Positions 3,782-28,160 of a DNA stretch of 33,865 bases are shown one piece after another. The stretch lies in contig CANGKR010000009.1 in assembly GCA_947454355.1 (NCBI GenBank), positions 1 to 33,865 of the forward strand, read 5' to 3'. The notes beneath the pieces are model-generated. The model was given only the letters and a program-made list of their open reading frames with translations. It was not told where the DNA came from and made no database searches. The DNA comes from Comamonadaceae bacterium (GTDB taxonomy: Bacteria > Pseudomonadota > Gammaproteobacteria > Burkholderiales > Burkholderiaceae_C). Positions within the stretch are counted from its first letter, which is position 1, and each line of letters starts with the position of its first letter. The translations under genes and the position numbers were made by a program.

Positions 3782-3784
3782 ATG

Positions 3785-7774: not shown

Positions 7775-8949
7775 GTACGAATTCGCCCGTGCAGTTGGTC
7801 GCGTGGTCTGCTTTTGCCAGCATGGCCGCCATGCGCATTTGTGACCCGATGTTGGTGGACCTGGGGCGAACCTTCGGCGTGACCACGGGCGAAGCCGCGC
7901 AAGTCATCACCGCCTACATGGTGGCCTATGGCGTCTTGCAATTGTTCTATGGCCCCTTGGGCGACCGATTGGGCAAGTTGCGGGTGATTTGGCTGGCCAC
8001 CTTCGCTTGTGGTGTGTTGAGTTTGGTCACCGCCGCGGCCCCCAACTTGTTGAGCCTGGTGGCAGCGCGAGCAGCCATGGGCGCGGCGGCGGCCGGCATC
8101 ATCCCGTTGTCGGTGGCCTGGGTGGGTGACCAAGTGCCCTATGCTCAACGTCAAGAGGCGCTGGCGCGTTTGATGGGTGCCACGGTCATGGGCATGATGG
8201 TGGGCCAATGGTTTGGCGGCTGGGCCACCGAGCATTGGGGGTGGCGTTACGGGCTTGCCGGTTTGGCCGTTTTGTTTGCCATGGCCGTGTGGCGCATGCA
8301 CCGCAGCCTGCAACAACTGCCCGCCTTTGTGCCTCCGACCGAACACATGCCTTGGGTGCAATATTGGCAAGCCACTGCCCGCTTGTGGACCCAGCCGCGG
8401 GTGCGTTGGGTGCTGACGATGACTTTCGCTGAAGGCGCTTTGGTGATGGGCACTGTGGCCTTCATGCCCAGCCGCTTGGTGGACCTGGGTTTGTCGGTGT
8501 CGCAGGCCGGTACGGCGATGGTGCTTTACGGCGCTTGTGGTCTGGCCTACAGCCAGTTGGCCAAGGTCAGTTTGGCGCGTTGGGGCGAGCAAGGCTTGGC
8601 GCGTGGCGGCGGTGCCTTGGTGGCTTTGGGTTTGTTGTCGCTGTCACTTGCCCCAGGCCCCGGCTGGGCGGTGCTGGCCTGCCCCTTGGCTGGCTGGGGC
8701 TTTTACATGATGCATAACACTTTGCAAACGCAGGCCACTCAAATGGCTCCCGAGGCCCGCAGCATGGCGGTGACTTTGTTTGCATGCACGCTCTTCCTCG
8801 GGCAAACGGCGGGTGTGGCCCTGGTGGCGCTGTGTCTGGATGCAGGCGGTTTGCAAGCCGCTCTCGGTATTGCGGCTGGTGCGGTGCTGCTGCTCGGTCT
8901 TTTTATGGCCAAAGGCTTGCAGCCTAAGACTTTGCTCAGTCCGCCTTGA
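7771..8949 (+). CDS. Major facilitator superfamily transporter
   Basis: 12-TM-like protein with the MFS motif QLFYGPLGDRLGKLRV. ATGA overlap with the upstream AEC gene; start refined to 7771. Confidence 0.88.
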   Translation: MSTNSPVQLVAWSAFASMAAMRICDPMLVDLGRTFGVTTGEAAQVITAYMVAYGVLQLFYGPLGDRLGKLRVIWLATFACGVLSLVTAAAPNLLSLVAARAAMGAAAAGIIPLSVAWVGDQVPYAQRQEALARLMGATVMGMMVGQWFGGWATEHWGWRYGLAGLAVLFAMAVWRMHRSLQQLPAFVPPTEHMPWVQYWQATARLWTQPRVRWVLTMTFAEGALVMGTVAFMPSRLVDLGLSVSQAGTAMVLYGACGLAYSQLAKVSLARWGEQGLARGGGALVALGLLSLSLAPGPGWAVLACPLAGWGFYMMHNTLQTQATQMAPEARSMAVTLFACTLFLGQTAGVALVALCLDAGGLQAALGIAAGAVLLLGLFMAKGLQPKTLLSPP

Positions 8950-10047: not shown

Positions 10048-11088
10048 ATGAAGCAACCCCTGATCATCGACTGCCACGGCCACTACACGACTGCCCCCAA
10101 GGCGCTGGAGACTTGGCGCAACCAGCAAATTGCCGGCATCAAGGATCCGTCTGTCATGCCCAAAGTATCGGACCTGAAAATCAGTGACGACGAATTGCGT
10201 GAATCGATCGAGACCAATCAACTCAAGCTCATGAAAGAGCGCGGCTCGGACATCACCATCTTCAGCCCCCGCGCCAGTTTCATGGCTCACCACATCGGTG
10301 ACTTCCAAATTTCTTCCACCTGGGCGGCCATTTGCAATGAGCTGTGCTACCGGGTTTCTCAGCTCTTTCCTGATCATTTCGTACCAGCCGCCATGCTGCC
10401 GCAGTCGCCCGGTGTGGACCCGGCCACCTGTATACCGGAGCTTGTCAAGTGTGTGGAGCAATACGGTAATGTGGGCATCAACCTGAACCCCGACCCGTCC
10501 GGCGGCCACTGGACATCGCCACCTTTGAGCGATAAACACTGGTACCCGATTTACGAAAAAATGGTGGAGTACGACATCCCCGCCATGATCCATGTGAGCA
10601 CCAGCTGCAACAGCTGCTTTCACACCACGGGTGCTCATTATCTGAACGCCGACACCACCGCCTTCATGCAATGTTTGACCAGTGATTTGTTCAAGGACTT
10701 TCCGACGTTGAAGTTCTTGATCCCGCATGGCGGCGGCGCTGTGCCTTATCACTGGGGCCGTTTCAGGGGCCTGGCACAGGAGCTGAAGAAGCCCTTGCTT
10801 CAAGACCATTTGCTGAACAATATTTTCTTTGACACCTGCGTGTACCACCAGCCGGGCATCGACCTGCTGACCAAAGTGATTCCGGTCGAGAATATTTTGT
10901 TCGCCTCCGAAATGATCGGCGCTGTGCGGGGCATCGACCCCGAAACCGGTCATTATTTCGATGACACCAAACGCTACATCCAGGGTTCGGACATTTTGAA
11001 TGACGACCAGCGCTTCAAGATCTATGAAGGCAACGCGCGCCGTGTGTTCCCGCGTCTGGATGCGCAACTCAAGGCCAAAGGGCATTGA
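10048..11088 (+). CDS. ligJ: 4-oxalomesaconate hydratase (amidohydrolase superfamily)
   Basis: [20 protein letters not shown], metal-site [16 protein letters not shown] and [21 protein letters not shown]; located with the other PCA 4,5-cleavage genes. Confidence 0.88.
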
Positions 11089-11149
11089 GTCGCCATCACT
11101 TTTAATTCCTCATGTCGGGCATCTCATACACATTTACAGGAAATTCACC

Positions 11150-11833
11150 ATGACCACTTTGGGCATCGTCAAACGCAATATCACCCGCGCCGATAAAGCA
11201 GCGGTCGACAAACTGGGCCGCTTCGGTGTGGCCACCGTGCATGAGGCAATGGGCCGCGTGGGCTTGATGCAGCGCTACATGCGCCCGATCTACAGCGGTG
11301 CCTTGGTCTCGGGCACTGCGGTGACCGTGCTGCTGCACCCCGGCGACAACTGGATGATGCACGTGGTGGCCGAGCAAATCCAGCCCGGCGATGTGGTGAT
11401 CGCTGCATTGAGTGCCGACAACTGCGATGGCTTTTTTGGAGACCTGTTGGCCACATCTTTCATGGCGCGCGGTGCGAAAGCCTTGATCATCGATGCGGGC
11501 GTGCGCGATGTGAAAGAACTCACCGCAATGGGTTTTCCAGTCTGGAGCAAAGGCATCAGTGCCAAGGGCACCATCAAGTCCACCTTGGGCTCTGTGAACA
11601 TCCCGGTGGTGTGCGCTGGCGTGAGCGTCAATCCTGGTGATGCGGTGGTCGCCGATGACGATGGCGTGGTGGTCGTGCCTGCCGAGTGGGCGCAAAAAGT
11701 AGCCGATGCGGCCGAAGCCCGCGAAGCCAACGAAGGCGAGAAGCGTGCCAAACTGGCTGCAGGCGTGTTCGGGCTGGACATGTACAACATGCGCGAACCC
11801 CTGGCCAAAGCCGGCTTGAAATACATCGACTGA
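11150..11833 (+). CDS. ligK: 4-carboxy-4-hydroxy-2-oxoadipate aldolase (HMG/CHA aldolase, class II)
   Basis: Starts [36 protein letters not shown]; contains [25 protein letters not shown] (RraA-like/HMG aldolase fold). Start refined from 11000 to 11150. Confidence 0.88.
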
Positions 11834-11834
11834 C

Positions 11835-12809
11835 ATGACTACTTTGAAAAATTTGTTGCGAAGGGCCTGTGTGGCCATTGGCGCTGCCCTGTGCCTGTCT
11901 GCATTTGCGCAGACTTACCCCGCCAAACCCGTCAAGGTGGTGGTGGGTTACGCCCCTGGAGGTGCGGTTGACATCGTTGCCCGCACTTTGGGCCAAGGCC
12001 TGTCGGCCAGTTTGGGTCAAGCCTTTGTAGTGGAGAACAAACCTGGCGCAGGAACCAATATCGCCGTCAAATCGGTGATCTCAGCCGAGCCGGATGGCCA
12101 CACCTTGATGTTGGCAGCCAATGCGCTGGCGGCCAACATGGCGCTGTACAAGCCCATGCCCTTCGATGCTGAAAAAGAACTGGTGGCGGTGTCCTTGATC
12201 GGCCGCGTGCCGGTGGTCATTGCGGCCAATCCCAATGTGCCCTATGCCTCTGTGGCACAGTTGATCGAGGCGGCCAAACGCCAAGCCAATTCGGTGGCCT
12301 TTGCCAGCCCGGGTAACGGCTCCACCCCGCACATGGCAGTGGAGTTTTTTGCCAAAGCTGCAGGCATCGATTTGCAGCATGTGCCTTACCGCGGCGGCAC
12401 GCCAGCGATCACCGATACCATCGGTGGACAGGTGCCGCTGGTGGCCGTGAATGCGCTGGAGGCCTTGCCGCATGTGAAAAGCGGCAAGCTCAAGGTATTG
12501 GCCGTCTTGAGTCCTGCGCGCAGCCCGATCTTCCCGGATGTACCCACCATCGCTGAGTCAGGTTTTGCAGGCTTTGAAGCCTCTGTCTGGTATGGCTTGG
12601 TGGCGCCTGCAGCCACGCCCAAGGGTGTGGTGGTCAAGCTGCATGAGCATGTGCAAAAAGCCTTGCAATCCCCTTTGATGCGTGAGCGTATGACGGCTGT
12701 GGGCGGGGAAGTCGTGCCAGGCAGCAGCGAGATGTTTGCCAATCTCATTCGTTCAGAACGCTTGCGCTACGAGAAACTCGTTCGCGAAGCGAACATCCAA
12801 CCCGATTGA
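11835..12809 (+). CDS. Tripartite tricarboxylate transporter-type periplasmic substrate-binding protein (Bug/TctC family)
   Basis: Signal peptide ending SAFAQ, then YPAKPVKVVVGYAPGGAVDIVARTLGQGLS and VENKPGAGTNIAVKSV; typical Bug family. Confidence 0.93.
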   Translation: MTTLKNLLRRACVAIGAALCLSAFAQTYPAKPVKVVVGYAPGGAVDIVARTLGQGLSASLGQAFVVENKPGAGTNIAVKSVISAEPDGHTLMLAANALAANMALYKPMPFDAEKELVAVSLIGRVPVVIAANPNVPYASVAQLIEAAKRQANSVAFASPGNGSTPHMAVEFFAKAAGIDLQHVPYRGGTPAITDTIGGQVPLVAVNALEALPHVKSGKLKVLAVLSPARSPIFPDVPTIAESGFAGFEASVWYGLVAPAATPKGVVVKLHEHVQKALQSPLMRERMTAVGGEVVPGSSEMFANLIRSERLRYEKLVREANIQPD

Positions 12810-12826
12810 TTATTGAAAATTTTTGT

Positions 12827-13747
12827 ATGGAATTCACCAAAACCCCCGGCTGGTTGGACTGGTACACCGGCCCGAGCAAACCCCAATTCCAGGTGCCCGC
12901 AGGCGCGGTGGACGCGCATTGCCACGTGTTTGGCCCCGGTGCCGAGTTCCCCTATGCGCCCGAGCGCAAGTACACGCCTTGCGATGCGTCCAAGCACCAG
13001 CTGTATGCGCTGCGTGACCACTTGGGCTTTGCGCGTAACGTGGTGGTGCAAGCCACTTGCCACGGCGCAGACAACCGCGCTATGGTCGATGCGCTGGTCC
13101 ACTCGGGTGGCAAGGCCCGTGGCGTAGCCACGGTCAAGCGCACTGTGACCGATGAAGAAATCCAGGCCATGCACGACGCCGGTGTGCGCGGAGTGCGATT
13201 CAACTTCGTCAAGCGTTTGGTGGACTTCACACCCAAGGACGAGCTGATGGAGATTGCCAGCCGCATCGCCAAGTGGGGCTGGCATGTGGTGATCTACTTT
13301 GAAGCGGTGGACTTGCCCGAGCTGTGGGATTTTTTCACCGCACTGCCCACCACTGTGGTGGTGGACCACATGGGGCGGCCTGATGTGTCCCTGCCAGTGG
13401 ATGGCCCGCAGTTTGCGTTGTTTCAGAAGTTCATGCGCGAGCATCAGAATGTGTGGAGCAAAGTGTCTTGCCCCGAGCGGTTGTCGGTCACCGGCCCTAA
13501 GGCTTTGAGCGGTGAACAAAACGCTTATCAAGATGTGATTCCCTTTGCCAAGCGCATCGTTGAAGAGTTCCCTGACCGCGTACTCTGGGGCACTGATTGG
13601 CCCCACCCCAATCTGAAAGACCACATGCCCGACGACGGCCTGCTGGTGGACTTCATCCCACACATCGCGACCACGGCCGAGCTGCAGCAAAAGCTGTTGG
13701 TCGATAACCCGATGCGCTTGTACTGGCCTGAAGAAGTCAAGAGCTGA
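12827..13747 (+). CDS. ligI: 2-pyrone-4,6-dicarboxylate lactonase (amidohydrolase)
   Basis: VDAHCHVFGPGAEFPYAPERKYTPCDAS, VVDHMGRPD, LWGTDWPHPNLKDHMPDDG. Start refined to ATG 12827. Confidence 0.92.
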   Translation: MEFTKTPGWLDWYTGPSKPQFQVPAGAVDAHCHVFGPGAEFPYAPERKYTPCDASKHQLYALRDHLGFARNVVVQATCHGADNRAMVDALVHSGGKARGVATVKRTVTDEEIQAMHDAGVRGVRFNFVKRLVDFTPKDELMEIASRIAKWGWHVVIYFEAVDLPELWDFFTALPTTVVVDHMGRPDVSLPVDGPQFALFQKFMREHQNVWSKVSCPERLSVTGPKALSGEQNAYQDVIPFAKRIVEEFPDRVLWGTDWPHPNLKDHMPDDGLLVDFIPHIATTAELQQKLLVDNPMRLYWPEEVKS

Positions 13748-13778
13748 TGCATCTTGCAAAGACATTTCAAGGAAATCT

Positions 13779-15099
<1,321 letters not shown>

Positions 15100-15111
15100 G
15101 AGGACATCCCC

Positions 15112-16065
15112 ATGAGCAAAACCATCAAAGTCGCCCTGGCAGGCGCAGGTGCCTTCGGCATCAAACACCTGGACGGCATCCAAAACATCGATGGCGTGGA
15201 AGTGGTCTCCTTGGTCGGCCGCGAACTGCCCAAAACACAAGAAGTCGCCGCCAAATACGGCATTGCCCATGTCACCACCGACCTGGCCGCCAGCTTGGCT
15301 TTGCCCGAAGTGGATGCGGTGATTTTGTGCACTCCCACCCAAATGCATGCCTCACAAAGTTTGTCTTGTTTGCAGGCGGGCAAACACGTGCAGGTTGAAA
15401 TTCCATTGGCCGACAGCTGGAAAGATGCTGACGAAGTCGTGCGTGTGGCGGCGCAAAAAGGCCTGGTGGCGATGTGCGGTCACACTCGGCGCTTCAACCC
15501 CAGCCACCAGTGGGTGCATCACAAAATCAAAGCCGGTGAATTCAACATCCAACAGATGGATGTACAGACCTACTTCTTCCGCCGCACCAACATGAACGCG
15601 CTGGGCCAGGCCCGCAGCTGGACCGACCATCTGCTTTGGCACCACGCGGCCCACACAGTGGACCTGTTTGCCTACCAATGCGGCAGCCCGATTGTCAAAG
15701 CCAATGCCGTGCAAGGTCCGATCCATCCAGCCTTGGGCATTGCCATGGACATGAGCATCCAACTGCAAGCGGCCAACGGCGCGATCTGCACCTTGAGTTT
15801 GTCCTTCAACAACGACGGTCCTTTGGGCACTTACTTTCGCTACATCGGCGACACCGGTACTTATTTGGCCCGCTACGACGACCTGTACACCGGCAAGGAA
15901 GAACAAATCGATGTATCCAAGGTGGCCGTCTCAATGAACGGCATCGAGTTGCAAGATCGCGAGTTCTTTGCTGCCATCCAAGAAGGCCGAGAGCCCAATT
16001 CCAGTGTGGCGCAGGTTTTGCCTTGCTACAAAGTTTTGCACGACCTGGAGCTTCAACTGAGCTGA
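15112..16065 (+). CDS. ligC: 4-carboxy-2-hydroxymuconate-6-semialdehyde dehydrogenase (Gfo/Idh/MocA family)
   Basis: Rossmann start KVALAGAGAFGIKHLDGIQ, then EIPLADSWKDADEVV and FNPSHQWVHHKI; follows ligAB. Confidence 0.9.
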   Translation: MSKTIKVALAGAGAFGIKHLDGIQNIDGVEVVSLVGRELPKTQEVAAKYGIAHVTTDLAASLALPEVDAVILCTPTQMHASQSLSCLQAGKHVQVEIPLADSWKDADEVVRVAAQKGLVAMCGHTRRFNPSHQWVHHKIKAGEFNIQQMDVQTYFFRRTNMNALGQARSWTDHLLWHHAAHTVDLFAYQCGSPIVKANAVQGPIHPALGIAMDMSIQLQAANGAICTLSLSFNNDGPLGTYFRYIGDTGTYLARYDDLYTGKEEQIDVSKVAVSMNGIELQDREFFAAIQEGREPNSSVAQVLPCYKVLHDLELQLS

Positions 16066-16107
16066 GGGCGATAAGATCATCTCCATTTTGGAATGAAATG
16101 AGTGGAC

Positions 16108-16935
16108 ATGACTGACCGTTACGCCGTCATCGGCAACCCCATTGAGCAGAGCAAGTCGCCGCTCATCCACACTGCTTTTGCCCAGGTGACTGGGCATGAC
16201 ATCAGTTACACCAAGGTCCTCGCGCCCTTGGATGGATTTGCCGACACTGTCGATGCCTTTCGCGCTGCCGGTGGTCGGGGCATGAACGTGACCGCGCCCT
16301 TCAAACTCGATGCTTGCGAGTATGCGACCGATCTGGCCCCCAGTGCACAGATGGCCGGTGCAGTCAATGCGATGAAGTTCGATGGCGACAGGGTCTTTGC
16401 AGAAAACTTCGATGGCGTGGGCTTGGTGCGTGACATGGTGCACAACCTGGCGCGGCCACTGAAAGGCCAACGCGTGTTGCTGTTAGGTGCAGGTGGAGCC
16501 ACACGTGGAGCCTTGCTTCCGCTGTTGGCGCAGCAACCTGCGCAGGTGGTTCTGGTCAATCGCACGGTGGCCAAAGCCCACGAATTGAGTGCTTTGGCGC
16601 AACGCCACAACCCCTTGCAGGTGCAGGCCTTGGGTTATGAGGATTTGCACGACATGGCTTTTGATGTGGTGATCAATGCCACCTCGGCCAGTTTGACGGC
16701 GCAGTTGCCCCCTTTGAAGGCCCAGGTTTTCGCCCCTGGCAGCCTGGCTTATGAACTGGCCTACGGCAAAGGACTCACTCCCTTTTTGAAACTGGCCCAG
16801 CAAGCCGGTGTCACCCACCTGGCCGATGGTGTAGGCATGCTTGCTGAGCAAGCCGCCGAAGCCTTTGCCTGGTGGCGTGGTGTGCGTCCGGACACGGCAG
16901 CGGTGATCCATCAACTGACGGTGCCATTGGTGTAG
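16108..16935 (+). CDS. aroE: Shikimate (quinate) dehydrogenase, AroE family
   Basis: YAVIGNPIEQSKSPLIHTAFA, NVTAPFK, ENFDGVGLVRD, LLLGAGGATRGALLPLL, ADGVGMLAEQAAEAFAWWRG. Confidence 0.92.
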   Translation: MTDRYAVIGNPIEQSKSPLIHTAFAQVTGHDISYTKVLAPLDGFADTVDAFRAAGGRGMNVTAPFKLDACEYATDLAPSAQMAGAVNAMKFDGDRVFAENFDGVGLVRDMVHNLARPLKGQRVLLLGAGGATRGALLPLLAQQPAQVVLVNRTVAKAHELSALAQRHNPLQVQALGYEDLHDMAFDVVINATSASLTAQLPPLKAQVFAPGSLAYELAYGKGLTPFLKLAQQAGVTHLADGVGMLAEQAAEAFAWWRGVRPDTAAVIHQLTVPLV

Positions 16936-16965: not shown

Positions 16966-16983
16966 ATGAACCAATTGGTACAT
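16966..16983. promoter_or_regulatory. Putative TetR operator overlapping the annotated tetR start codon
   Basis: ATGAACCAATTGGTACAT is an 18-bp near-perfect palindrome (8 of 9 pairs). A 14/16 match of AACCAATTGGTACATT occurs at 17712-17727. Confidence 0.55.
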
Positions 16984-17655
16984 TCCGACAAAGACCCTGC
17001 CCTGCGAGACAGTCCCAAGGAGCCGGCGCGTACCAACGACCCGGCGCGTACCATGGCTGAAATCCTGGCCGTGGCCACGCACGAGTTTGCTGATAAAGGC
17101 TTGAGCGGTGCCCGTATCGACGAGATCGCGGCCGCCACGCGCACCAGCAAGCGCATGATCTATTACTACTTCGGAAGCAAAGACGGGTTGTACCTGGCTG
17201 TGCTGGAAGAGGCTTACCGGCGCATGCGTACGATCGAGGCCGATTTGCATCTGGCCGATCTGGGCCCGGTGGGGGCGCTGCGCAAGCTGGTGGAGTTCAC
17301 CTACGACCACCACCGCGACAACGAAGATTTCATTCGCCTGGTCATGAACGAGAACATCCAGCGCGGCGAGTATCTGCGTCAAAGCCAAAGCATCCAAGCG
17401 CTCAATACCAATGCCATTCAGTCCGTGCGCGCAGTGTATGAACGCGGGGTCGCACAGGGCGATTTCCGAGCCGGTCTGGACCCAGTGGACATCCACTCCG
17501 CTATTTCCGCTTTCACATTTTTCAATGTCTCGAACCGCCACACCTTCGGCGTGATTTTCAAAGACCGCGCCAGCACGGGCAAGGCGGAGACCCTGCAACG
17601 CGAGCATGTGGTCGAATTGATCCTGCGTTTTGTCAGCCATTCGATCTCGGCATAA
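16966..17655 (+). CDS. TetR family transcriptional regulator
   Basis: HTH ILAVATHEFADKGLSGARIDEIAAATRTSKRMIYYYFGSKDGLYLAVLEE. The start could be 16966 or ATG 17053. Confidence 0.92.
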   Translation: MNQLVHSDKDPALRDSPKEPARTNDPARTMAEILAVATHEFADKGLSGARIDEIAAATRTSKRMIYYYFGSKDGLYLAVLEEAYRRMRTIEADLHLADLGPVGALRKLVEFTYDHHRDNEDFIRLVMNENIQRGEYLRQSQSIQALNTNAIQSVRAVYERGVAQGDFRAGLDPVDIHSAISAFTFFNVSNRHTFGVIFKDRASTGKAETLQREHVVELILRFVSHSISA

Positions 17656-17751: not shown

Positions 17752-18291
17752 ATGTTGAACGCAATCATTGAGGGGTACTGCCGCCTCCTCAACCTCATCA
17801 CCGCCGCTGCGCTGGCGGTCATGGTGGTCTTGGTCTTTGGGAACGTGGTCATGCGCTACGGCTTCAATACGGGCATCACCATGTCAGAAGAGTTGTCTCG
17901 CTGGTTGTTTGTCTGGTTGACTTTTTTGGGCGCCATTGTGGCCATGAAGGATGGCGCGCACTTGGGTTCCGATACTTTGGTGTCTCGCTTGCCTCTGGGC
18001 GGCAAAAAACTCTTCATGCTGATCGGTCACGGCTTGATGCTGTTTGTCTGTGGCTTGTTGTTCAAAGGCTCTTACGAGCAAGCCGTCATCAATTGGGACA
18101 CCACCAGTGCGGTGATGGAGGCGTCCATGGCGATCTTCTATGGCTGCGGCATGGTGGCTGCTGTCTCGATGGCGGTCATTTTGCTCAACAAACTGTGGCT
18201 GTTGGCCACAGGTCAATTGACTGAGCAAGAGCTGGTCGGGGTGCGCGAGTCGGAAGAGGAACCGATCGATGTGCCTGCACCTTTGAAATAA
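17752..18291 (+). CDS. TRAP transporter small membrane subunit (DctQ family)
   Basis: 4-TM protein with VFGNVVMRYGFNTGITMSEELSRWLFVWLTFLGA; followed by DctM- and DctP-like genes. Confidence 0.92.
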   Translation: MLNAIIEGYCRLLNLITAAALAVMVVLVFGNVVMRYGFNTGITMSEELSRWLFVWLTFLGAIVAMKDGAHLGSDTLVSRLPLGGKKLFMLIGHGLMLFVCGLLFKGSYEQAVINWDTTSAVMEASMAIFYGCGMVAAVSMAVILLNKLWLLATGQLTEQELVGVRESEEEPIDVPAPLK

Positions 18292-18305
18292 GAAGAAAGA
18301 GAAAA

Positions 18306-19583
18306 ATGACCATCGCTGTTTTTCTGGGTTCTTTGCTCGCAGCCATGGCGCTGGGCATTCCGATTGCGTTTTCATTGCTCTTGTGCGGCGTGGCTCTCAT
18401 GTGGCACATGAACATGTTCGATGCGCAGATCCTGGCGCAAAACCTGATTGAAGGCTCCAACAGCTTTCCTCTGCTGGCCGTGCCTTTTTTCATGCTGGCC
18501 GGTGAAATCATGAACACCGGAGGGTTGTCGCGTCGCATCGTGGACTTTGCCATGGCTTTGGTGGGGCACATCCGTGGCGGTTTGGGATATGTGACCATCG
18601 TCGCCGCTTGCTTGCTTTCCGCCTTGTCCGGCTCTGCTGTGGCCGATGCCGCAGCTCTGACAGCCTTGCTTTTGCCCATGATGGTCAAGGCCGGACACGA
18701 TAAGGCCCGCAGCGGAGGCTTGATCGCCGCTTGCGGTGTGATCGGCCCGATCATCCCGCCTTCGATTGGTTTCGTGATCTTTGGGGTGACGGCCAATGTG
18801 TCGATCAGCAAGCTGTTTTTGGCGGGCATTTTCCCGGGCATCGTCCTCAGTGCAGGCTTGTGGATCACCTGGGGTTGGCTCACCCGAAAAGAGCAGTTGA
18901 CGCCACCACCACGTCAACCGCTGTCTGAAATCATGGCCTCATTGCGCCGCGCCACCTGGGCCTTGATGCTGCCGGTGATCATTTTGGTCGGCCTGCGCAT
19001 GGGCGTGTTCACACCCACTGAAGCGGCTGTGGTGGCTGCGGTTTATGCTTTGTTTGTGGCTGGGGTGATCTACCGTGAACTCAGCTGGACGCAGTTGTTC
19101 GATGTGTTCCAGGCCGCCGCCAAAACCACTGCTGTGGTGATGTTCCTGGTCGCCGCTGCCATGGTCTCGGCTTGGTTGATCACTGTGGCCAATTTGCCCC
19201 AGCAGGTCATTACCTTGTTGGAACCGCTTTTGGGCAGTCCCACCTTGTTGATGTTCGCCATCATGATTTTGTGCATGATCGTGGGCACAGCTATGGACAT
19301 GACACCCACCATCCTGATTTTGACGCCCGTGCTCATGCCTTTGGTGACGGCGGCGGGAATCGATCCGGTGTATTTCGGTGTCATGTTCATCATCAATAAT
19401 TCCATCGGCTTGGTCACGCCGCCCGTGGGCACGGTGCTCAATGTGGTTGCGGGTGTGGGTCGCATGCGCATGGACGATGTGACACGTGGTGTCATTCCAT
19501 TCATGGTGGTGCAATTTGCAGTGATGTTCCTGATGGTGCTGTTCCCGCAAATTGTGATGGTGCCAGCACGCTGGTTCTACTGA
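18306..19583 (+). CDS. TRAP transporter large membrane subunit (DctM family)
   Basis: 425 aa polytopic; LLAVPFFMLAGEIMNTGGLSRRIVDFA, GPIIPPSIGFVIFG, LVTPPVGTVLNVV. Confidence 0.95.
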   Translation: MTIAVFLGSLLAAMALGIPIAFSLLLCGVALMWHMNMFDAQILAQNLIEGSNSFPLLAVPFFMLAGEIMNTGGLSRRIVDFAMALVGHIRGGLGYVTIVAACLLSALSGSAVADAAALTALLLPMMVKAGHDKARSGGLIAACGVIGPIIPPSIGFVIFGVTANVSISKLFLAGIFPGIVLSAGLWITWGWLTRKEQLTPPPRQPLSEIMASLRRATWALMLPVIILVGLRMGVFTPTEAAVVAAVYALFVAGVIYRELSWTQLFDVFQAAAKTTAVVMFLVAAAMVSAWLITVANLPQQVITLLEPLLGSPTLLMFAIMILCMIVGTAMDMTPTILILTPVLMPLVTAAGIDPVYFGVMFIINNSIGLVTPPVGTVLNVVAGVGRMRMDDVTRGVIPFMVVQFAVMFLMVLFPQIVMVPARWFY

Positions 19584-19665
19584 TTTTTTCTTGAGGTCTG
19601 ACCGGGTACGCCAGTCCTCAAGTTCTTGCATGCGTACGTCCTTGACATTTTTTTGGAGAAAAATC

Positions 19666-20697
19666 ATGAAACGTGTGTTCATCAAGTCCTTGATCGCTGC
19701 CGTAGCTTTGGCTGCTGTGGGCGTGGCTTCGGCACAAGACAAAACCATCAAGTTCGCCAACCAGAACGCGGCGGGCCACCCCATCATTTTGGGGATGGAA
19801 AAATTTAAAGAAATCGTAGAAAAAAACTCCGGCGGCAAGATCAAGGTCAACGTGTTCCCGGGTGGCGCCTTGGGCAGTGACCAGGCCAACGTGTCTGCCA
19901 TTCAGGGCGGCTCTTTGGAGATGGCTGCCATGAACTCCGGCATTTTTGCCGCGCAGGTCAAAGAGTTCGCCATTTTTGACTTCCCCTTCATGTTCGCAAC
20001 CGGCAAAGAAGCTGACGCGGTGGTGGACGGTCCTTTCGGTAAGAAGCTGCACGCCAAGTTGGAAGAAAAAGGCCTGATCGGTCTGGGTTACTACGAACTG
20101 GGCTTTCGCAACATCACCAACAGCAAGCGCGCCGTCAATAAAGTGGAAGACCTCGAAGGCCTGAAACTGCGCGTGATCCCCAACCCGATCAATGTGGACT
20201 GGGTCAAAGCTTTGGGCGCCAACCCGACACCGCTGCCTTTCCCTGAGCTGTATGCAGCCTTGGACCAAAAAGCTGTGGACGGCCAGGAAAACCCAGTGGC
20301 CACCATCAACGGTGCCAAGTTGTATGAAGTCCAAAAACACCTGGTGTTGACTGGCCACCAGTACAACCCCCAGTCGGTCGTGATCAGCAAGAAGTTCTGG
20401 GAAAAGCTGTCTGCAGCTGAGCAAAAAATCGTGGCCGATGCCGTGACCGAGTCTGCGAAGTTCCAGCGCGAAAAAGCCCGTGCCCTGGAATCCAGCATTT
20501 TGGACAATCTCAAGAAAAACGGCATGCAAGTGACCCAGTTGCCAGAAGGCGAAATGTCCAAGTTGCGCGACAAGATGCGCCCTGTGACCGCCAAGTATGG
20601 CGTGACGATGGGTCAGGATCTGGTCAAGGAACTGCAAGCCGACATCGAAAAAGTGCGTATGGCTGCGGCTGCACCTGCCAAAAAATCTGGCAAGTGA
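19666..20697 (+). CDS. TRAP transporter periplasmic substrate-binding protein (DctP family)
   Basis: Signal peptide MKRVFIKSLIAAVALAAVGVASAQ; VNVFPGGALGSDQANVSAIQGGSLEMA; LKLRVIPNPINVDWVKALGANPTPLPFPELYAALDQKAVDGQENP. Start refined to 19666. Confidence 0.95.
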   Translation: MKRVFIKSLIAAVALAAVGVASAQDKTIKFANQNAAGHPIILGMEKFKEIVEKNSGGKIKVNVFPGGALGSDQANVSAIQGGSLEMAAMNSGIFAAQVKEFAIFDFPFMFATGKEADAVVDGPFGKKLHAKLEEKGLIGLGYYELGFRNITNSKRAVNKVEDLEGLKLRVIPNPINVDWVKALGANPTPLPFPELYAALDQKAVDGQENPVATINGAKLYEVQKHLVLTGHQYNPQSVVISKKFWEKLSAAEQKIVADAVTESAKFQREKARALESSILDNLKKNGMQVTQLPEGEMSKLRDKMRPVTAKYGVTMGQDLVKELQADIEKVRMAAAAPAKKSGK

Positions 20698-20757: not shown

Positions 20758-21201
20758 ATGAAAGTCTTGATGCTGCACGGCGTGAACCACAACATGTTCG
20801 GCAAACGCGACCCCAAGCAGTACGGCACCATCACCCTCGACGAAATCAATGCCAACTTGCAAAAATTGGGTAAAGAGCTGGGTGCCGAGGTTGAGTGCTA
20901 CCAGACCAACCATGAAGGTGATATGTGCGAGCGCATTCACCAGGCTTACTTCGACAAAGTCGACGCGGTGTTGATCAATGCCGGTGCATGGACCCATTAC
21001 AGCTATGCCATCCGCGATGCGCTGGCGGTACTGACTTGCCCGGTGGTTGAACTGCACATGTCCAACATCCACGCCCGCGAAGAATTCCGTCACAAGTCGG
21101 TCTTCGCCGAAATCGTCAATGGTCAGATCTGTGGCTTTGGCGCAGACAGCTATTTGCTGGCGCTGCGAGCTGGTGTGTCCGCCGCACAAGCCGCTCGCTG
21201 A
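20758..21201 (+). CDS. aroQ: Type II 3-dehydroquinate dehydratase, divergent (probably catabolic)
   Basis: 147 aa; KRDPKQYGTITLDEIN, NHEGDMCERIHQAYF, INAGAWTHYSYAIRDAL, ELHMSNIHAREEFRHKSV retain the AroQ active-site pattern, with a divergent N-terminal loop HGVNHNMFG. Confidence 0.9.
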   Translation: MKVLMLHGVNHNMFGKRDPKQYGTITLDEINANLQKLGKELGAEVECYQTNHEGDMCERIHQAYFDKVDAVLINAGAWTHYSYAIRDALAVLTCPVVELHMSNIHAREEFRHKSVFAEIVNGQICGFGADSYLLALRAGVSAAQAAR

Positions 21202-21237: not shown

Positions 21238-22071
21238 ATGATCAACGGCCATACCCAACTCATCGCCCACATCGGTTACCCGACGCACAGCTTCAAGTCG
21301 CCGATGATTTACAACCCGTATTTTGACCATGCGGGCATCAACGCGGTGGTGGTGCCCATGGGCTGTCAAGCCGAACACTATGCTGAGTTCTTGAAGTCTG
21401 TTTTCAACCTGACCAACATCTGTGGTGCCTTGATCACCATGCCCCACAAAGTCACCACCGTGGGCTTGCTCCATGAAGTCACCCCCACCGTTCGGGTGGC
21501 CGGCGCCTGCAATGCGGTCAAACGCTTGGCCGATGGCCGCTTGGTGGGCGACATGTTCGACGGTGCAGGTTTTGTGCGCGGTGTGCAAGGTAAGGGTTTT
21601 GACCTGACAGGCAAGCGCGTGCTGGTGGTGGGCACAGGCGGTGTCGGTTGCGCCATTGCGGCCTCGCTGGCAGGTGCAGGTGTGGCGGCCATCAGCTTGT
21701 TTGATGTGCACATGGAAAGCTGTGAAGCCCTCGCGCAACGGCTGAAAACGCATTACCCGCAAATCGAGGTGCGCACAGGTTCCAACGATCCGGCCGATCA
21801 CCACCTGGTGGTCAATGCCACGCCCATGGGCATGAACGAGGGCGATCCCTTGCCCTTGGATGTCAGCCGCTTGTCCCCCGACACCTTTGTGGGCGAAGTC
21901 GTCATGAAGACCGAAAGGACGGCCTTCTTGCAGGCCGCTCTCAGCCGAGGTTGCCGCGTACAAGTGGGCTCGGACATGTTGTTTGAACAAATTCCAGCGT
22001 ATCTGGAATATTTCGGTCTACCCAGCACCACGCCCGCTGAGCTGCGGGCTTTGGCTCAATTGAGTTACTGA
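21238..22071 (+). CDS. Shikimate dehydrogenase-like protein (second, divergent AroE homologue)
   Basis: HIGYPTHSFKSPMIYNPYFDHAGI, GALITMPHK, GDMFDGAGFVRGV, VLVVGTGGVGCAIAASLAGAG, NATPMGM, GSDMLFEQ. Confidence 0.85.
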   Translation: MINGHTQLIAHIGYPTHSFKSPMIYNPYFDHAGINAVVVPMGCQAEHYAEFLKSVFNLTNICGALITMPHKVTTVGLLHEVTPTVRVAGACNAVKRLADGRLVGDMFDGAGFVRGVQGKGFDLTGKRVLVVGTGGVGCAIAASLAGAGVAAISLFDVHMESCEALAQRLKTHYPQIEVRTGSNDPADHHLVVNATPMGMNEGDPLPLDVSRLSPDTFVGEVVMKTERTAFLQAALSRGCRVQVGSDMLFEQIPAYLEYFGLPSTTPAELRALAQLSY

Positions 22072-22116: not shown

Positions 22117-22998
22117 ATGAGCTTGCAAGCTGTTCACCGCGAAGCCGTCCCCGAAATGCCCAACCGCTTGGGCATCGAGGGCATCGAGTTCATCGAGTAC
22201 GCCACCAGTCGCCCGCAGGCGCTGGGCCAGGTGCTAGAGAACATGGGTTTTCGGCCCGTGGCGCGGCACCGCTCGCGCGAGGTGACTTTGTACCGTCAGG
22301 GCTCGATGAACCTGGTGGTCAACGCCAGCCCTGATGATGCACGGGTCAGCGGCACAGTGGATGGACAACCTGTCATCTCTGCAGTGGCCTTTCGAGTCCA
22401 GGATGCGCTCAAGGCCCACACCCGCTGCATGGAGCTGGGCGCTTGGAGCGTGGGCAGCCATGCGCAAGCGATGGAACTGCACATCCCCGCCATTCACGGC
22501 CCGGGCGGCAGCCGCTTTTACTTTGTGGACCGCTGGCAAGAGTTTTCGATCTACGACATCGACTTCAAGACCATTCCCACGGTGGACCCACATCCACCGG
22601 CATTGACCGAGATGAGTTACTTCGGTGTGGTGCAGTACATCGGTGCTGAGCGCAGTGCCGATTGGCTGGCTTACTACGAACACATGTTCGACTTCAGCAC
22701 CATTGCCGATGACGAGCGCTTTGGCATCTTGCCCAAAGGCAAACTGATGAAGAGCCCGTGTGGCCAGTTTCTGTGGCAGTTGATCGAGCCCGATCCCTGG
22801 ATGGACGAGGCCGACGAGTCCCCAGAGTGCCTGCAGCGTGTAGGCTTTGGCGTGCCTGATGTGGCCCAGTCTGTTCAGGCATTGAAGACGCGTGGGGTCG
22901 AGTTCGTCGAGTCCACGGCATTGCACCCGGAAGACCGAGGTGCTTTGACTCGCACGACTTTGGGCAGTGTGTCCTTTGAATTGGTGCACAAGGCATGA
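22117..22998 (+). CDS. 4-hydroxyphenylpyruvate dioxygenase-like VOC protein, metal site degenerate; likely the split-off HPPD-like part of a QuiC-type dehydroshikimate dehydratase
   Basis: HPPD N-domain hallmarks GIEFIEYATSRPQALGQVLENMGFRPVARHRSREVTLYRQGSMNLVVNAS and FYFVDRWQEFSIYDIDF. ATGA overlap with the downstream dehydratase gene. Confidence 0.8.
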   Translation: MSLQAVHREAVPEMPNRLGIEGIEFIEYATSRPQALGQVLENMGFRPVARHRSREVTLYRQGSMNLVVNASPDDARVSGTVDGQPVISAVAFRVQDALKAHTRCMELGAWSVGSHAQAMELHIPAIHGPGGSRFYFVDRWQEFSIYDIDFKTIPTVDPHPPALTEMSYFGVVQYIGAERSADWLAYYEHMFDFSTIADDERFGILPKGKLMKSPCGQFLWQLIEPDPWMDEADESPECLQRVGFGVPDVAQSVQALKTRGVEFVESTALHPEDRGALTRTTLGSVSFELVHKA

Positions 22999-23879
22999 AC
23001 GCGCAAATTGCCGGTTTCGGCATGGACACCATCACCATGGCCGGCACGCTGGAAGCCAAGCTGGCGGCCATGAAGGAAGCAGGTTTTTCGCAAGTCATGC
23101 TGATGGCCAAAGACCTGGTGACCCACCCGGCAGGCGTGGAGGGCGCAGTGCAAGCCGTCAAGAACAGCGGCCTGCGGCCCACGGGCTTTCAGGTGCTGCG
23201 AGACTTCGAAGGCCTCTCAGGCCATTTGCACGACTACAAGATCGACATTGCCAAATCCATGCTGCAAATGTGCGCAGCCACAGGTAGCCAAGTTTTGTTG
23301 GTGTGTTCGTCCACCTCGCGCCACGCCACCTGCGACTTGGACGCTTTGGCCCGTGACCTGAAAAAACTGGCCATGCTGGCCATACCCTTGGGCATCAAGA
23401 TCGCCTACGAAGGCTTGTCTTGGGGGCGCCATGTCAACGAGTTCACCACCGCCTGGGATGTGGTGTGCCGCGCCGATTGCCCTAACTTGGGGCTGGGACT
23501 GGATTCCTTTCACATCTTCGCCACCGGCACCGCTCTGGACGCGATCGATGAGTTGGATCCCACCAAAATTTTCTTGACGCAATTGTCGGACTTCATGTGG
23601 AACGAGACCCCCACCTTTGAAGACCGCATGACCACCGCCCGCACATTCCGTGTGTTCCCAGGGGAGGGCGTGCACAGCGCACAGTTGGCCGATCTGGTCC
23701 TGCGGTTGGAACGCATCGGTTACCGCGGTGACTACAGCTTTGAAGTCTTCAACGACGACTACCAACAACTGCCCTTGGCCACCGTGGCCGAGCGTGCACG
23801 CCGCAGCGCTCTGTGGCTGCACGATGACGTGCTGCACCGCGCCGCACCTCTGCCCGATTGGACACGCCAAGGCGTGTGA
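22995..23879 (+). CDS. quiC: 3-dehydroshikimate dehydratase, sugar phosphate isomerase/epimerase-like TIM barrel (N-terminal part of QuiC-type enzymes)
   Basis: QVLRDFEGL, VLLVCSSTSRHA, IAYEGLSWGRHVNEFTTAWDVVCRADCPNLGLGLDSFHIFA, FRVFPGEG, YSFEVFNDDY match recalled QuiC/AsbF-type features; AroQ/AroE/PCA-cleavage context. Confidence 0.85.
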   Translation: MNAQIAGFGMDTITMAGTLEAKLAAMKEAGFSQVMLMAKDLVTHPAGVEGAVQAVKNSGLRPTGFQVLRDFEGLSGHLHDYKIDIAKSMLQMCAATGSQVLLVCSSTSRHATCDLDALARDLKKLAMLAIPLGIKIAYEGLSWGRHVNEFTTAWDVVCRADCPNLGLGLDSFHIFATGTALDAIDELDPTKIFLTQLSDFMWNETPTFEDRMTTARTFRVFPGEGVHSAQLADLVLRLERIGYRGDYSFEVFNDDYQQLPLATVAERARRSALWLHDDVLHRAAPLPDWTRQGV

Positions 23880-24626
23880 TCAATGCACTGACGACAAAAA
23901 CTGTTTCAGCTCTGGTGTTTGCGGATGCGCAAACAACTCCTCAGGCGGCCCCTGCTCATGGACGCGCCCTTGGTGCATGAAGATCACACGGTCGCTGACC
24001 CTGCGGGCAAACTGCATTTCATGCGTAACCATCAGAAGTGTCATGCCTTCTTGAGCCAAAGACTCCACCACCGCCAAGACCTCCCCCACCAATTCTGGAT
24101 CGAGCGCCGAGGTGATCTCATCGCAGAGCAAAATCATGGGTGACATGGCCAATGCACGGGCTATCGCTACGCGCTGTTGCTGGCCGCCTGACAACTGGTC
24201 TGGAAAGGCGTCGAATTTTTCTTCCAACCCCACACGAGCCAGCAGACGTCTGGCCAGTGTTTCTGTTTCAGCGCGGGTCTGGTGTTTGACCAGTCCAGGT
24301 GCCAATTGGATGTTGCGTCCCACATTCAAGTGCGGGAACAAATTGAAGGACTGGAAAATCATGCCTACCTGTTGACGCAAGACCCGCAAGGCAACAGGGT
24401 TGTGGGGTTCCAGTGATTGCCCTTGTACCTTCAGTTTACCCTGTTGAAACGATTCCAAGCCATTGATACAGCGCAGCAAGGTGCTTTTGCCAGAACCGCT
24501 TTTGCCGATGATGGCAATCACTTCACCGGACTGGACCTCCAGGTCGACACTTCGGAGCACTTCGTTGTTACCGAACGATTTACGAAGTCCCTGGATGGAC
24601 AGGGCACAGGGGTTAGCGTTTGACAT
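23880..24626 (-). CDS. Polar amino acid-type ABC transporter ATP-binding protein
   Basis: Walker [19 protein letters not shown], signature [15 protein letters not shown], Walker [21 protein letters not shown]. Confidence 0.93.
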
Positions 24627-25263
24627 TCAAATGGCTTTCGAGGGATCGAGCGTACCAACTGATCGGATAGCAAATTGCAAAATACATGAAAGCAACGCAG
24701 CTGTAGACCAAGAAAGGTTTGAAGGTTGCGTTGGTGATCATGGTGCCCGCTTTGGTCAATTCCACAAAGCCAATGACGGAAGCCAAGGCCGTGCCTTTGA
24801 TCACTTGAACCAGAAAACCGACGGTCGGGGCTACCGCCAATTGGGCGGCTTGAGGAAAGATGACGAAGCGCAGTTGCTCTCGAAAGTTCAAGGCCAGACT
24901 TTGCGCAGCTTCCCATTGGCCTTTGGGCACTGCTTTGACACAGCCATGCCAAATTTCGACTAAAAAAGCACTGCTGTACAAAGTCAAAGCTACCGAAGCA
25001 GACATCCACGCTGTGGTCTCCACTCCCAACAAGGCCAAACCGAAGTAGGCTAAAAACAGTTGCATCAGCAAGGGTGTGCCTTGAAAGACCTGTACATACA
25101 CCGCTACCGCCTTTTGCAGTGCAGCCATGGGTGAGCTACGAATGACGAGCAAACACAGACCCAGGACGCCACCGCCCGTAAAGGCAATGAGCGACAACAA
25201 CAAAGTCCAACGTGCGGCCAAGAGCAAATTACTGAAGATGTCCCATAGTGAAAATTCAACCAT
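24613..25263 (-). CDS. Polar amino acid-type ABC transporter permease
   Basis: HisM/GlnP-type FQGTPLLMQLFLAYFGLALLG, FLVEIWHGCVKAVPKGQWEAAQSLAL. Start refined to 25263 (MVEFSLWDIF). Confidence 0.92.
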   Translation of the reverse strand: MVEFSLWDIFSNLLLAARWTLLLSLIAFTGGGVLGLCLLVIRSSPMAALQKAVAVYVQVFQGTPLLMQLFLAYFGLALLGVETTAWMSASVALTLYSSAFLVEIWHGCVKAVPKGQWEAAQSLALNFREQLRFVIFPQAAQLAVAPTVGFLVQVIKGTALASVIGFVELTKAGTMITNATFKPFLVYSCVAFMYFAICYPISWYARSLESHLNVKR

Positions 25264-25927
25264 GACGGCCACCCCATAAAAATCGTCGTGCCAAGGCATT
25301 CAGGACGTGGCGCGTAGCGATCGAGAGGATTAGATACAAACCTGTGGCGATGATGAATGCCTCGAACGATCGGAAGTTGCGGCTTTGGATCAGATTGGCT
25401 GCATAGCTCAGTTCAGGTGTGGAGATCTGTCCGCACACCGCAGATCCCAGCATGACGATAATGATCTGACTGACCAGTGCAGGCCAGACTTTCTGCAGAG
25501 CAGGCGGCAGCACCACCCAGATGAACACCTGACTGCGGCTCAATGCCAGACTTTCAGCGGCTTCGATTTGCCCTGCGGGGGTATTGACGATGCCTGCGCG
25601 GATGATCTCAGCAGAATATGCGCCCAGGTTGATGACCATGGCCAGCACAGAAGACCATTCCGGACTCATCCTTATGCCCAGCGCAGGCAAACCAAAGAAG
25701 ATGAAAAACAGTTGAACAATGAAGGGCGTGTTGCGGAACAACTCCACATACAGACCCGCCCCCTGCCGCGCGGCTTTTGGACCTTGGGTGCGTACCCAGG
25801 CGCAAACAGTACCTAACAACAACCCACCCATTGCCGATATCGCGGTCAGCCCAAGCGTCCACAGCACCCCGTGGACCAGCAAGGGCCATTCGCTCCAGAC
25901 GGCTGAAAAGTTCAATTGGATGGGCAT
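25256..25927 (-). CDS. Polar amino acid-type ABC transporter permease
   Basis: ELFRNTPFIVQLFFIFFGLPALG, YSAEIIRAGIVNTPAGQIEAAESLALSRSQ. Confidence 0.93.
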   Translation of the reverse strand: MPIQLNFSAVWSEWPLLVHGVLWTLGLTAISAMGGLLLGTVCAWVRTQGPKAARQGAGLYVELFRNTPFIVQLFFIFFGLPALGIRMSPEWSSVLAMVINLGAYSAEIIRAGIVNTPAGQIEAAESLALSRSQVFIWVVLPPALQKVWPALVSQIIIVMLGSAVCGQISTPELSYAANLIQSRNFRSFEAFIIATGLYLILSIATRHVLNALARRFLWGGRHG

Positions 25928-25939
25928 GGTGAGCCGTTT

Positions 25940-26734
25940 TTATTCAGGCAAAGTGCCCGCGGGACGGCCTAGCCATTTTTGCGCCATTTTGTCGATGTCG
26001 CCTGATTTTTTTGCGTCAGCAATGATCGCATTGACTTTGTTACGCAAGGCATCTTCGCCCTTGGCCACGCCGATGAAGTTGGGACTATCTTTGAGTAACA
26101 ACTTGAACTCTGCATTCAATTGCGGATTCTTTTGCATCATCACGCCCGCCACCTGTGCGCCCGTGGCCACCAGTTGCGTTTGTCCAGAAACAAAAGCCGA
26201 TACGGTGCCGTTGTTGTCTTCAAAACGTTTGATATCGGTGGAAGCGGGGGCCACTTTGGTTAACTCTTGATCTTCCAATGCGCCGCGTGTGGCCGATACG
26301 GTTTTGCCCGCCAGATCGGCCATGCTTTTGATGCTCATGTTTTTGGGGCCGTAGACGGCTTGGAAGTAGGGTGAATACGCAAAGCTGAAGTCGATGACTT
26401 TTTCGCGGTCTGGATTTTTGCCCAGTGTCGAGATCACCAGGTCCGCTTTTTTAGTCTGCAAATAAGCAATACGGTTGGGACTGCTGACTGGCAGCAATTC
26501 GACCTGCACGCCCATTTTGCTGGCAATGTATTGCGCCATCTCGATGTCAAGACCTTGCGGTTTCAGATCTACACCGACAAAGCCGTAGGGCGGGAAATCT
26601 GTGGGGATGGCGATCTTGATTTGTTTGGCTTTCAAAATCGATTCCATTGCATTTTGTGCCCAGACATTGGGCGTCATCAAAAGTCCCGCAGCAGCCAAGG
26701 CGGTGGTCAAAAAAGATCGAGGGGTGAGTTTCAT
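25940..26734 (-). CDS. Polar amino acid-type ABC transporter substrate-binding protein (SBP_bac_3)
   Basis: Signal peptide MKLTPRSFLTTALAAAGLLMTPNVWAQ; IKIAIPTDFPPYGFVGVDLKPQGLDIEMAQYIASKMG; SATRGALEDQEL. Confidence 0.93.
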   Translation of the reverse strand: MKLTPRSFLTTALAAAGLLMTPNVWAQNAMESILKAKQIKIAIPTDFPPYGFVGVDLKPQGLDIEMAQYIASKMGVQVELLPVSSPNRIAYLQTKKADLVISTLGKNPDREKVIDFSFAYSPYFQAVYGPKNMSIKSMADLAGKTVSATRGALEDQELTKVAPASTDIKRFEDNNGTVSAFVSGQTQLVATGAQVAGVMMQKNPQLNAEFKLLLKDSPNFIGVAKGEDALRNKVNAIIADAKKSGDIDKMAQKWLGRPAGTLPE

Positions 26735-27408
26735 GAAGAACTTTCAGAGGCAGGTTGAGAAATGGTGAGCAGTCGACGCAAGCCTGCGTCCACACTGTCG
26801 ATCAAGGGGATTGGAAAATACGATTGCAGCCGCTCGGCCCAGCCGGCCAAACCCGCGCCACCGATGATGATGGACTTGACTGGACTGCGTTTGAGCAGGT
26901 TCACGCAGGCTTGTGTCAACAGTTGCTCGGCTTCTGCGGGGCGGGCGCTCAAGGAGGCGCCGTCGAGTTCCACGGTTTCAATGCCCAGCAGATCACGGCC
27001 GCTGGGCAATGACAGCGCCAGCCGCTGCAACATCGGCCCCCAGGCCCGGCCACCGGTCACGATGCCATACGGCCCGATGGCTTGCGCGGCCATGAACGAT
27101 GCTTCAGCCAAACCCGTCACGGGCACGCCTGCAGCTTCGCGAAGCGCAAACAAGCCGGGGTCGCCAAAGCAGCCGATCAAGACCGCATCGATGGGCCATT
27201 GGGCCGACGCGGTTTGCCAGGCTTGCCAGGTTGCATGCCCTGCAACGGCGCAGGCCACCTCGGTCGAGATGTATGGGGCACCGAACGGTGCAGTCACTGC
27301 ATGTAAGGTGGCTGGCGCCAGCAGTTCAAGACCAAGGCCTTGCAAGCGGTCGGTCACCAGCGCGGTGGTGTTGGGATTGATGATCAGATAGGACGGCAAG
27401 GTATTCAT
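26731..27408 (-). CDS. Asp/Glu/hydantoin racemase superfamily protein, second catalytic Cys replaced by Gly
   Basis: LIINPNTTALVTDRL, LIGCFGDPGLFALREAAGVPVTGLAEA, IIIGGAGLAGWAERL (GCAG expected in racemases). Confidence 0.83.
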   Translation of the reverse strand: MNTLPSYLIINPNTTALVTDRLQGLGLELLAPATLHAVTAPFGAPYISTEVACAVAGHATWQAWQTASAQWPIDAVLIGCFGDPGLFALREAAGVPVTGLAEASFMAAQAIGPYGIVTGGRAWGPMLQRLALSLPSGRDLLGIETVELDGASLSARPAEAEQLLTQACVNLLKRSPVKSIIIGGAGLAGWAERLQSYFPIPLIDSVDAGLRRLLTISQPASESSS

Positions 27409-28160
27409 CCTTCAAGGGGCTCACCCAGCCGCAGCAGGTGCTGCAGGTCTTGCTTGGGCGTCTCGGGCCGTTGCCACACCAGGCTGTGTTCGATTTCAAG
27501 CAAGTGTGCTTGCATCAACTGCTGTGCGGGCTCGGGCACGCGCAAACGAATCGCATCGACCAAAGCCTGGTGCGCGTTGCAACCGCACGCAGCCCGCTCC
27601 GCACGGGCGCTTTGGTCGCCTTGCCCGTAAGTCATCAAAATCAACGAAGTGCGAGATACCAATTCGCTGAGCACCCGTTGCAGCGTGGTGTGTCCCGATT
27701 TTTCGGCAATCCACAAATGGAACTGTCCTGACAAACGAATCGCCCGCTGCCGGTCGCCTGCGAGATGGGCCGCTTCTTCATTGTCAATGATTTCGCGCAG
27801 GGTGTTCACATCCGCATCGCTGGCCTGCGCGATGAAACGGGCCACCAAGGTCGGCTCAATCATGCGGCGCACTTCAAAAATTTCTCGAGACTCTTGCGGT
27901 GTGGGTTCCGCCACCACCGCACCTTTGTTGGGCCGCAGGGTGATGATGCTTTCATTGGCCAGTCGTACCAGTACTGGGCGGATGCGGGTGCGCGAGACCC
28001 CAAAGGCGGTCGCGAGTTTGTCTTCCACCAGCTTGGTGCCAGGCACCAAGCGATGGTCCAAGATGGCCGAGATCAAGGTATCGTAAATTTCGACATCCGA
28101 AACACTGCCTGGCTCCGCGGTGCTGGCTAAGGACGAGTGGTTGTGCGCGGCCTGCAACAT
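27405..28160 (-). CDS. GntR family (FCD domain-type) transcriptional regulator
   Basis: AILDHRLVPGTKLVEDKLATAFGVSRTRIRPVLVRLANESIITLRPNKGAVVAEPTPQESREIFEVRRMIE. Confidence 0.93.
   Translation of the reverse strand: MLQAAHNHSSLASTAEPGSVSDVEIYDTLISAILDHRLVPGTKLVEDKLATAFGVSRTRIRPVLVRLANESIITLRPNKGAVVAEPTPQESREIFEVRRMIEPTLVARFIAQASDADVNTLREIIDNEEAAHLAGDRQRAIRLSGQFHLWIAEKSGHTTLQRVLSELVSRTSLILMTYGQGDQSARAERAACGCNAHQALVDAIRLRVPEPAQQLMQAHLLEIEHSLVWQRPETPKQDLQHLLRLGEPLEG

Follow-up and report, generated by a model that had tools for sequence, protein, structure and literature searches.

The window (the whole stretch of 33,865 nucleotides that was analysed) carries two adjoining genes, one coding for a protein related to 4-hydroxyphenylpyruvate dioxygenase (HPPD) and the other for a TIM-barrel protein of the QuiC type, which are designated here as HPPDL and TIM, respectively. 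The two probably constitute a two-component 3-dehydroshikimate dehydratase (DSD) with an obligate pseudoenzyme partner that serves a quinate/shikimate catabolic operon. According to this model, TIM (22995–23879) would convert 3-dehydroshikimate to protocatechuate, which would then be degraded by the products of the neighboring 4,5-cleavage genes, and HPPDL would be an obligate partner, a subunit that retains the fold of HPPD but no longer the dioxygenase metal site. HPPDL would probably act on the dehydratase by oligomerising, stabilising, or tuning it, which is the kind of role proposed for the C-terminal domain in fused QuiC/QsuB. A two-subunit dehydratase had been put forward in the original prediction and is the best fit to our data, from which we infer the DSD activity, the physical complex, and the structural or regulatory role of HPPDL.

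The pair is real and conserved, and this variant of a known enzyme has apparently not been described before. QuiC1 from Pseudomonas putida (PDB 5HMQ) and QsuB from Corynebacterium glutamicum are single polypeptides with an N-terminal DSD domain and a C-terminal HPPD-like domain, whereas the pair consists of two genes in the opposite order. The four DSD classes given in PMC9324987 include no two-gene class, and we found no described two-gene DSD in the open-access literature.

Anatomy and operon context of the gene pair

The pair ends a predicted quinate/shikimate operon, which adjoins a complete-looking cluster for protocatechuate 4,5-cleavage, with the following features.

10048..16065, + strand: protocatechuate 4,5-cleavage cluster
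Starts at 10048 and 12806, + strand: two amidohydrolases of this cluster
11096–11833, + strand: LigK/PcmE aldolase, RraA-like, over the curated cut-off
Between the aldolase and the amidohydrolase starting at 12806, + strand: TctC
13779–14216, + strand: small LigA-like ORF, assigned from position and size only
Start at 14221, + strand: LigB, over the curated cut-off
Start at 15112, + strand: Gfo/Idh/MocA dehydrogenase
16102..16935, + strand: AroE1, shikimate dehydrogenase, over the NCBIfam cut-off
16966..17655, + strand: TetR-family regulator
17752..20697, + strand: TRAP transporter DctQ, DctM, and DctP, probably for quinate/shikimate uptake
20758..21201, + strand: AroQ, type II 3-dehydroquinate dehydratase, which makes the DSD substrate, over the curated cut-off
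21238..22071, + strand: AroE2, divergent shikimate/quinate dehydrogenase-like protein, 45 bp upstream of HPPDL
22117..22998, + strand: HPPDL, HPPD-like VOC protein of 293 aa, ATG start, without a metal site
22995..22998, + strand: ATGA stop/start overlap of the HPPDL and TIM genes, absent from most relatives
22995..23879, + strand: TIM, predicted TIM-barrel DSD of 294 aa, QuiC1 N-domain type, ATG start

A LysR gene is also present with the 4,5-cleavage genes. In this pathway, quinate and shikimate are converted via 3-dehydroshikimate to protocatechuate, which undergoes 4,5-cleavage. Dehydration of 3-dehydroshikimate is the sole step for which the window offers no candidate gene outside the pair, and the source genome (85% complete) yielded no further QuiC-type TIM. 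AroE2, which usually adjoins the pair in 80 Limnohabitans-type loci, scores well under every curated cut-off (138.8 bits against 252) and may belong to a class of its own among the quinate or shikimate dehydrogenases. In relatives, AroQ/AroE genes adjoin both the split pair and fused QuiC.

On the far side of the pair, 23880–28160 holds convergent genes for an amino-acid-type ABC transporter (ATPase, two permeases, and binding protein), an Asp/Glu/hydantoin racemase, and, from its sequence, a GntR-like regulator; this region is not kept beside the pair in relatives. At 3782–4846, a vanillate O-demethylase-type Rieske oxygenase gene adjoins branched-chain-type ABC transporter genes, which suggests further aromatic-acid catabolism.

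Both ORFs are present as originally predicted, the HPPD-like one first and the TIM-barrel one second with a shared ATGA, and the assignment of the barrel to the QuiC type was likewise borne out. TIM is an AP_endonuc_2 TIM barrel with the N-domain of QuiC1 as its best PDB match (5hmq, 139 bits, 2e-39), and NCBIfam QuiC matches it over positions 6–268 (6.2e-48). HPPDL matches the Glyoxalase_5/HPPD N-terminal family PF14696 (1.6e-44, 151.9 bits against a cut-off of 27), and its second VOC domain is degenerate. The best PDB matches of HPPDL are the pseudomonad HPPD chains 9qmf (131.5 bits) and 1cjx (128.3 bits), with the C-domain of QuiC1 (5hmq) scoring below them at 74 bits. TIM (163.7 bits) and HPPDL (88.5 bits) both fall short of the 1200-bit cut-off of NCBIfam NF042435, but so do the majority of fused QuiCs that do not belong to the top-scoring group.

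Catalytic residues of TIM and HPPDL

When TIM was compared with the list of QuiC1 active-site residues in PMC7442255, nine of ten were identical, all four metal ligands among them. The corresponding residues (QuiC1 first) are R64/R69, L97/L102, E134/E139, L136/L141, D165/D170, H168/H173, Q191/Q196, S206/A215, R210/R219, and E239/E250. TIM thus has all seven residues by which we assigned proteins to the QuiC/QsuB DSD barrels, namely, the metal ligands E134, D165, Q191, and E239 together with R64, H168, and R210, and Ala at the S206 position is also found in several fused QuiCs. Judging from these residues, the TIM barrel is very probably CATALYTICALLY competent and the dehydroshikimate dehydratase of the operon.

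The split pair shares with QuiC1 and QsuB its two superfamilies, the active site of the barrel, a pathway position beside AroQ/AroE, and an HPPD-like part of unsettled function. It differs from them in that HPPDL is shorter, lacks the metal site, and falls into a separate clade, and the identity between the barrels is 33–36%. As a stand-alone metal-dependent TIM-barrel polypeptide, TIM resembles the single-domain bacterial DSD AsbF; however, AsbF is reported to be anabolic (petrobactin; PMC9324987), whereas TIM stands in a catabolic context with an HPPD-like gene alongside. IolI and other xylose-isomerase-like TIM barrels (PDB 1I60) have the AP_endonuc_2 fold and part of the metal ligands in common with TIM, but IolI is a weaker match (56 vs 139 bits) and has an unrelated gene context.

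HPPDL is predicted not to be a dioxygenase because it has other residues at two of the three metal-ligand positions of HPPD: the iron ligands H161, H240, and E322 correspond to G170, R241, and E288. This pattern holds for 131 HPPDLs of the family, with Gly in 130 and Ser in one at the first position, Arg in 131/131 at the second, and Glu in 130 and Gly in one at the third. Among representatives, the metal ligands were lost in 29/29 HPPDLs, whereas 24/24 sampled HPPDs had the His-His-Glu (HHE) set; the C-domains of fused QuiCs mostly have HHE or HQE, a set that the G-R-E of HPPDL does not match. With pseudomonad-type HPPD (1CJX, 9QMF; TIGR01263), HPPDL shares the VOC architecture and an N-terminal Glyoxalase_5 domain of about 40% identity, but its C-terminal domain is about 60 residues shorter, and its gene lies in an operon with a DSD gene instead of tyrosine catabolism.

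RefSeq names HPPDL homologues '4-hydroxyphenylpyruvate dioxygenase', for example those at 7968–8864 of locus L249 and 6974–7894 of locus L250. That HPPDL works as this enzyme or as a ring-cleaving dioxygenase is hardly credible, even though its N-domain is 40% identical to HPPD and HPPD is its top PDB and Foldseek match. In addition to the loss of the metal ligands throughout the family and the shortened C-terminal domain, HPPDL scores far under the TIGR01263 cut-off (85.8 vs 277 bits), and the source genome encodes a true HPPD elsewhere (contig C145, 388 bits). The dioxygenase reading is largely refuted already. The RefSeq name is almost certainly wrong for this family and is probably a systematic misannotation that can mislead reconstructions of the tyrosine pathway. 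The original prediction had weighed the pairing against an HPPD-like protein that belongs to an unrelated clade of VOC proteins and has an independent activity; HPPDL does form a clade of its own, but the site for a dioxygenase activity is absent.

Conservation of the pair and its separation from fused QuiC

Among 401 genomes sampled across the family of the source bacterium, 134 had HPPDL, and every one of them also had TIM. In 133/134, the two genes lay next to each other on one strand with HPPDL first, and the lone exception had a partial TIM on another contig; given this constancy, their pairing is far from chance. The reversed order, TIM before HPPDL, occurred in none of the 134. TIM is a stand-alone polypeptide that is encoded with HPPDL except in four genomes with TIM only: in two of these, TIM stands at the start of a contig, a third is 58% complete and has a partial TIM, and in the fourth (G389), TIM has diverged to only 46–48% identity. 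In 80 Comamonadaceae-type loci from relatives with 72–90% identity (many Limnohabitans, and also Rhodoferax, Curvibacter, Acidovorax, and one Achromobacter), HPPDL was followed by TIM except at contig ends, with AroE usually and AroQ/TRAP often upstream. Pairs on plasmids were found in Vitreoscilla and Massilia, and a single genome from another family had the order HPPDL–AroE–TIM (locus L358, 3518–6085, genome G919).

The intergenic gap is mostly a few to about 20 bp and 60–100 bp in some relatives, and ATGA occurs in few genomes; because of this variation, it is operon membership that is kept and not the overlap. The proposal that the genes are translationally coupled by the overlap can stand for this genome but does not extend to its relatives, and ATGA coupling as a conserved mechanism was ruled out.

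The relation of the pair to fused QuiC was examined with trees of both domains, as suggested in the original prediction. Split, fused, and true HPPD sequences formed three separate groups in the HPPD-domain tree, and split and fused sequences formed separate groups in the TIM-domain tree. The split and fused forms were mutually exclusive, well-supported clades for both domains, and no fused protein was nested inside a split clade in these trees. Both trees are unrooted; when Sphingomonas/Sphingobium HPPDs were used to root the HPPD-domain tree, the outgroup fell inside the HPPD clade. Fused QuiC, confirmed with the NCBIfam model in genomes where it was not already shown by the locus, coexists with the split pair in 18/134 genomes. 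A Massilia plasmid carries aroQ, an SDH gene, and a fused QuiC gene; 5 kb further along this plasmid lies a split pair that has the ATGA overlap. Since both forms occur on one plasmid or in one genome, the split pair is not an alternative reading of the fusion.

Because of the separate clades and this coexistence, we judge that the pair is not a broken fusion and that its present form did not give rise to the fusion. The gene order and the separate clades ruled out a fusion broken by a stop codon or a frameshift, in agreement with the original prediction, which had also been right that the order is opposite to that of the fusion. The other suggestion made there, an ancestral pre-fusion state, did not hold for the present form. 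The HPPDLs checked lack ligands that most fused domains keep, and for this reason a metal-ligand-less HPPDL was not plausibly the direct ancestor of fused domains that retain them. An origin of the pair as a pre-fusion form of QuiC or as a product of QuiC fission would account for the two shared superfamilies being tied to the same pathway and for the relatedness of the TIM clades, but it is improbable in view of the order, inverted in every case, the clade structure, the ligand loss, and the 18 genomes with both forms. An older common ancestral pair may lie behind the split and fused forms, with the tree being unrooted.

Decay of TIM and the role of HPPDL

In genomes without fused QuiC, the TIM catalytic residues were intact in 114/116 full-length cases, which would be the expectation for a TIM that is the sole DSD of its type, whereas 8/18 split TIMs in genomes with fused QuiC lacked metal ligands or other catalytic residues. 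For the association between TIM loss and fused QuiC, the Fisher p was 2.6e-6 by genome but only 0.035 with a single count per genus (3/11 vs 2/51 genera). The losses beside fused QuiC occurred in three genera, and their placement on the tree requires two or more independent events. Such decay implies catalytic redundancy between split TIM and fused QuiC, which in turn supports a DSD function of TIM. The exceptions that lost TIM residues without having fused QuiC are G386 and G676; G687, listed as another such case, has a truncated TIM fragment. In G386 (L202/L360), the split TIM carries E134Q, D165G, and R210G, with AroE and AroQ nearby; this genome may possess another type of DSD. In one genome (L180; G517:C46:14125-15983), a fused QuiC gene beside a degenerate split pair goes out of frame near profile residue 511, and its two pieces in different frames reflect either a broken gene or an assembly error.

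In the three genera with TIM losses, the TIM genes are still open and adjacent to HPPDL. HPPDL is constrained there (NG86 dN/dS 0.11–0.33), TIM is relaxed (0.35–0.57), and the ratio of TIM dN to HPPDL dN is 1.7–4.8. The ratio is mostly 0.3–1.5 in comparison genera with intact TIM (exceptions, 1.7 and 2.7) and 2.0 in a fused-bearing pair with intact TIM. Given that HPPDL is constrained despite a dead TIM, HPPDL does more than serve catalysis by TIM. We infer that the value of HPPDL outlasts the loss of catalysis in its partner; of the present results, this one is the most interesting and has the least explanation.

These observations count against the two-component model, as do the order at L358, which demonstrates that direct adjacency is not required, and the TIM losses in G386 and G676. 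The constraint on HPPDL and the order at L358 would be accommodated if HPPDL were a metal-free protein with its own function in quinate/shikimate catabolism, co-transcribed with the DSD gene and not a subunit of the enzyme; for example, it might bind or rearrange a carboxylate intermediate through Arg241, which is invariant at a former metal-ligand position. We regard this explanation as rather unlikely: none of the 134 genomes has HPPDL without a TIM gene, the catalytically dead TIM genes that remain intact and adjacent speak for partnership, and no enzyme family with an HPPDL-type site is at hand.

For the two-component model, the precedent is QsuB, whose HPPD-like domain has no activity on protocatechuate and for which a role in oligomerisation has been proposed; this domain promotes oligomerisation, drives octamer formation, raises kcat, and changes product inhibition (PMC7442255). 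An AlphaFold model of HPPDL alone with 28 close homologues had a pLDDT of 52, too low to judge an interface, and its Foldseek matches, HPPD first and 5hmq next, confirm the fold only. A single-chain HPPDL–TIM model, with the stop read through in an in-frame relative (L022), was uninformative (pLDDT 40, pTM 0.37).

A more speculative extension, which we put forward only tentatively, is that the HPPDL–TIM complex serves more than DSD catalysis, with HPPDL as a metal-free, ligand-binding regulatory or scaffold subunit and dead TIM as a second pseudoenzyme in a pair that is kept. If so, fused QuiC would take over catalysis and TIM would decay while the pair is retained for its other role, and HPPD-like partners would have been retained with DSDs in two architectures for one shared reason.

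The interest of the pair is moderate and mainly for specialists. What the HPPD-like half does in QuiC/QsuB is a standing question, and the pair makes it directly testable: here, this half has its own gene, lacks the iron site, and in 134 genomes of one family is strictly paired with the dehydratase gene, and therefore it can be removed by deletion, purified, and supplied again while the enzyme itself stays whole. Natural cases with a dead TIM and a retained HPPDL offer a way to separate the role of HPPDL from DSD catalysis. The pair would represent a two-gene counterpart of the one-piece DSD in Limnohabitans-type freshwater bacteria and many of their relatives.
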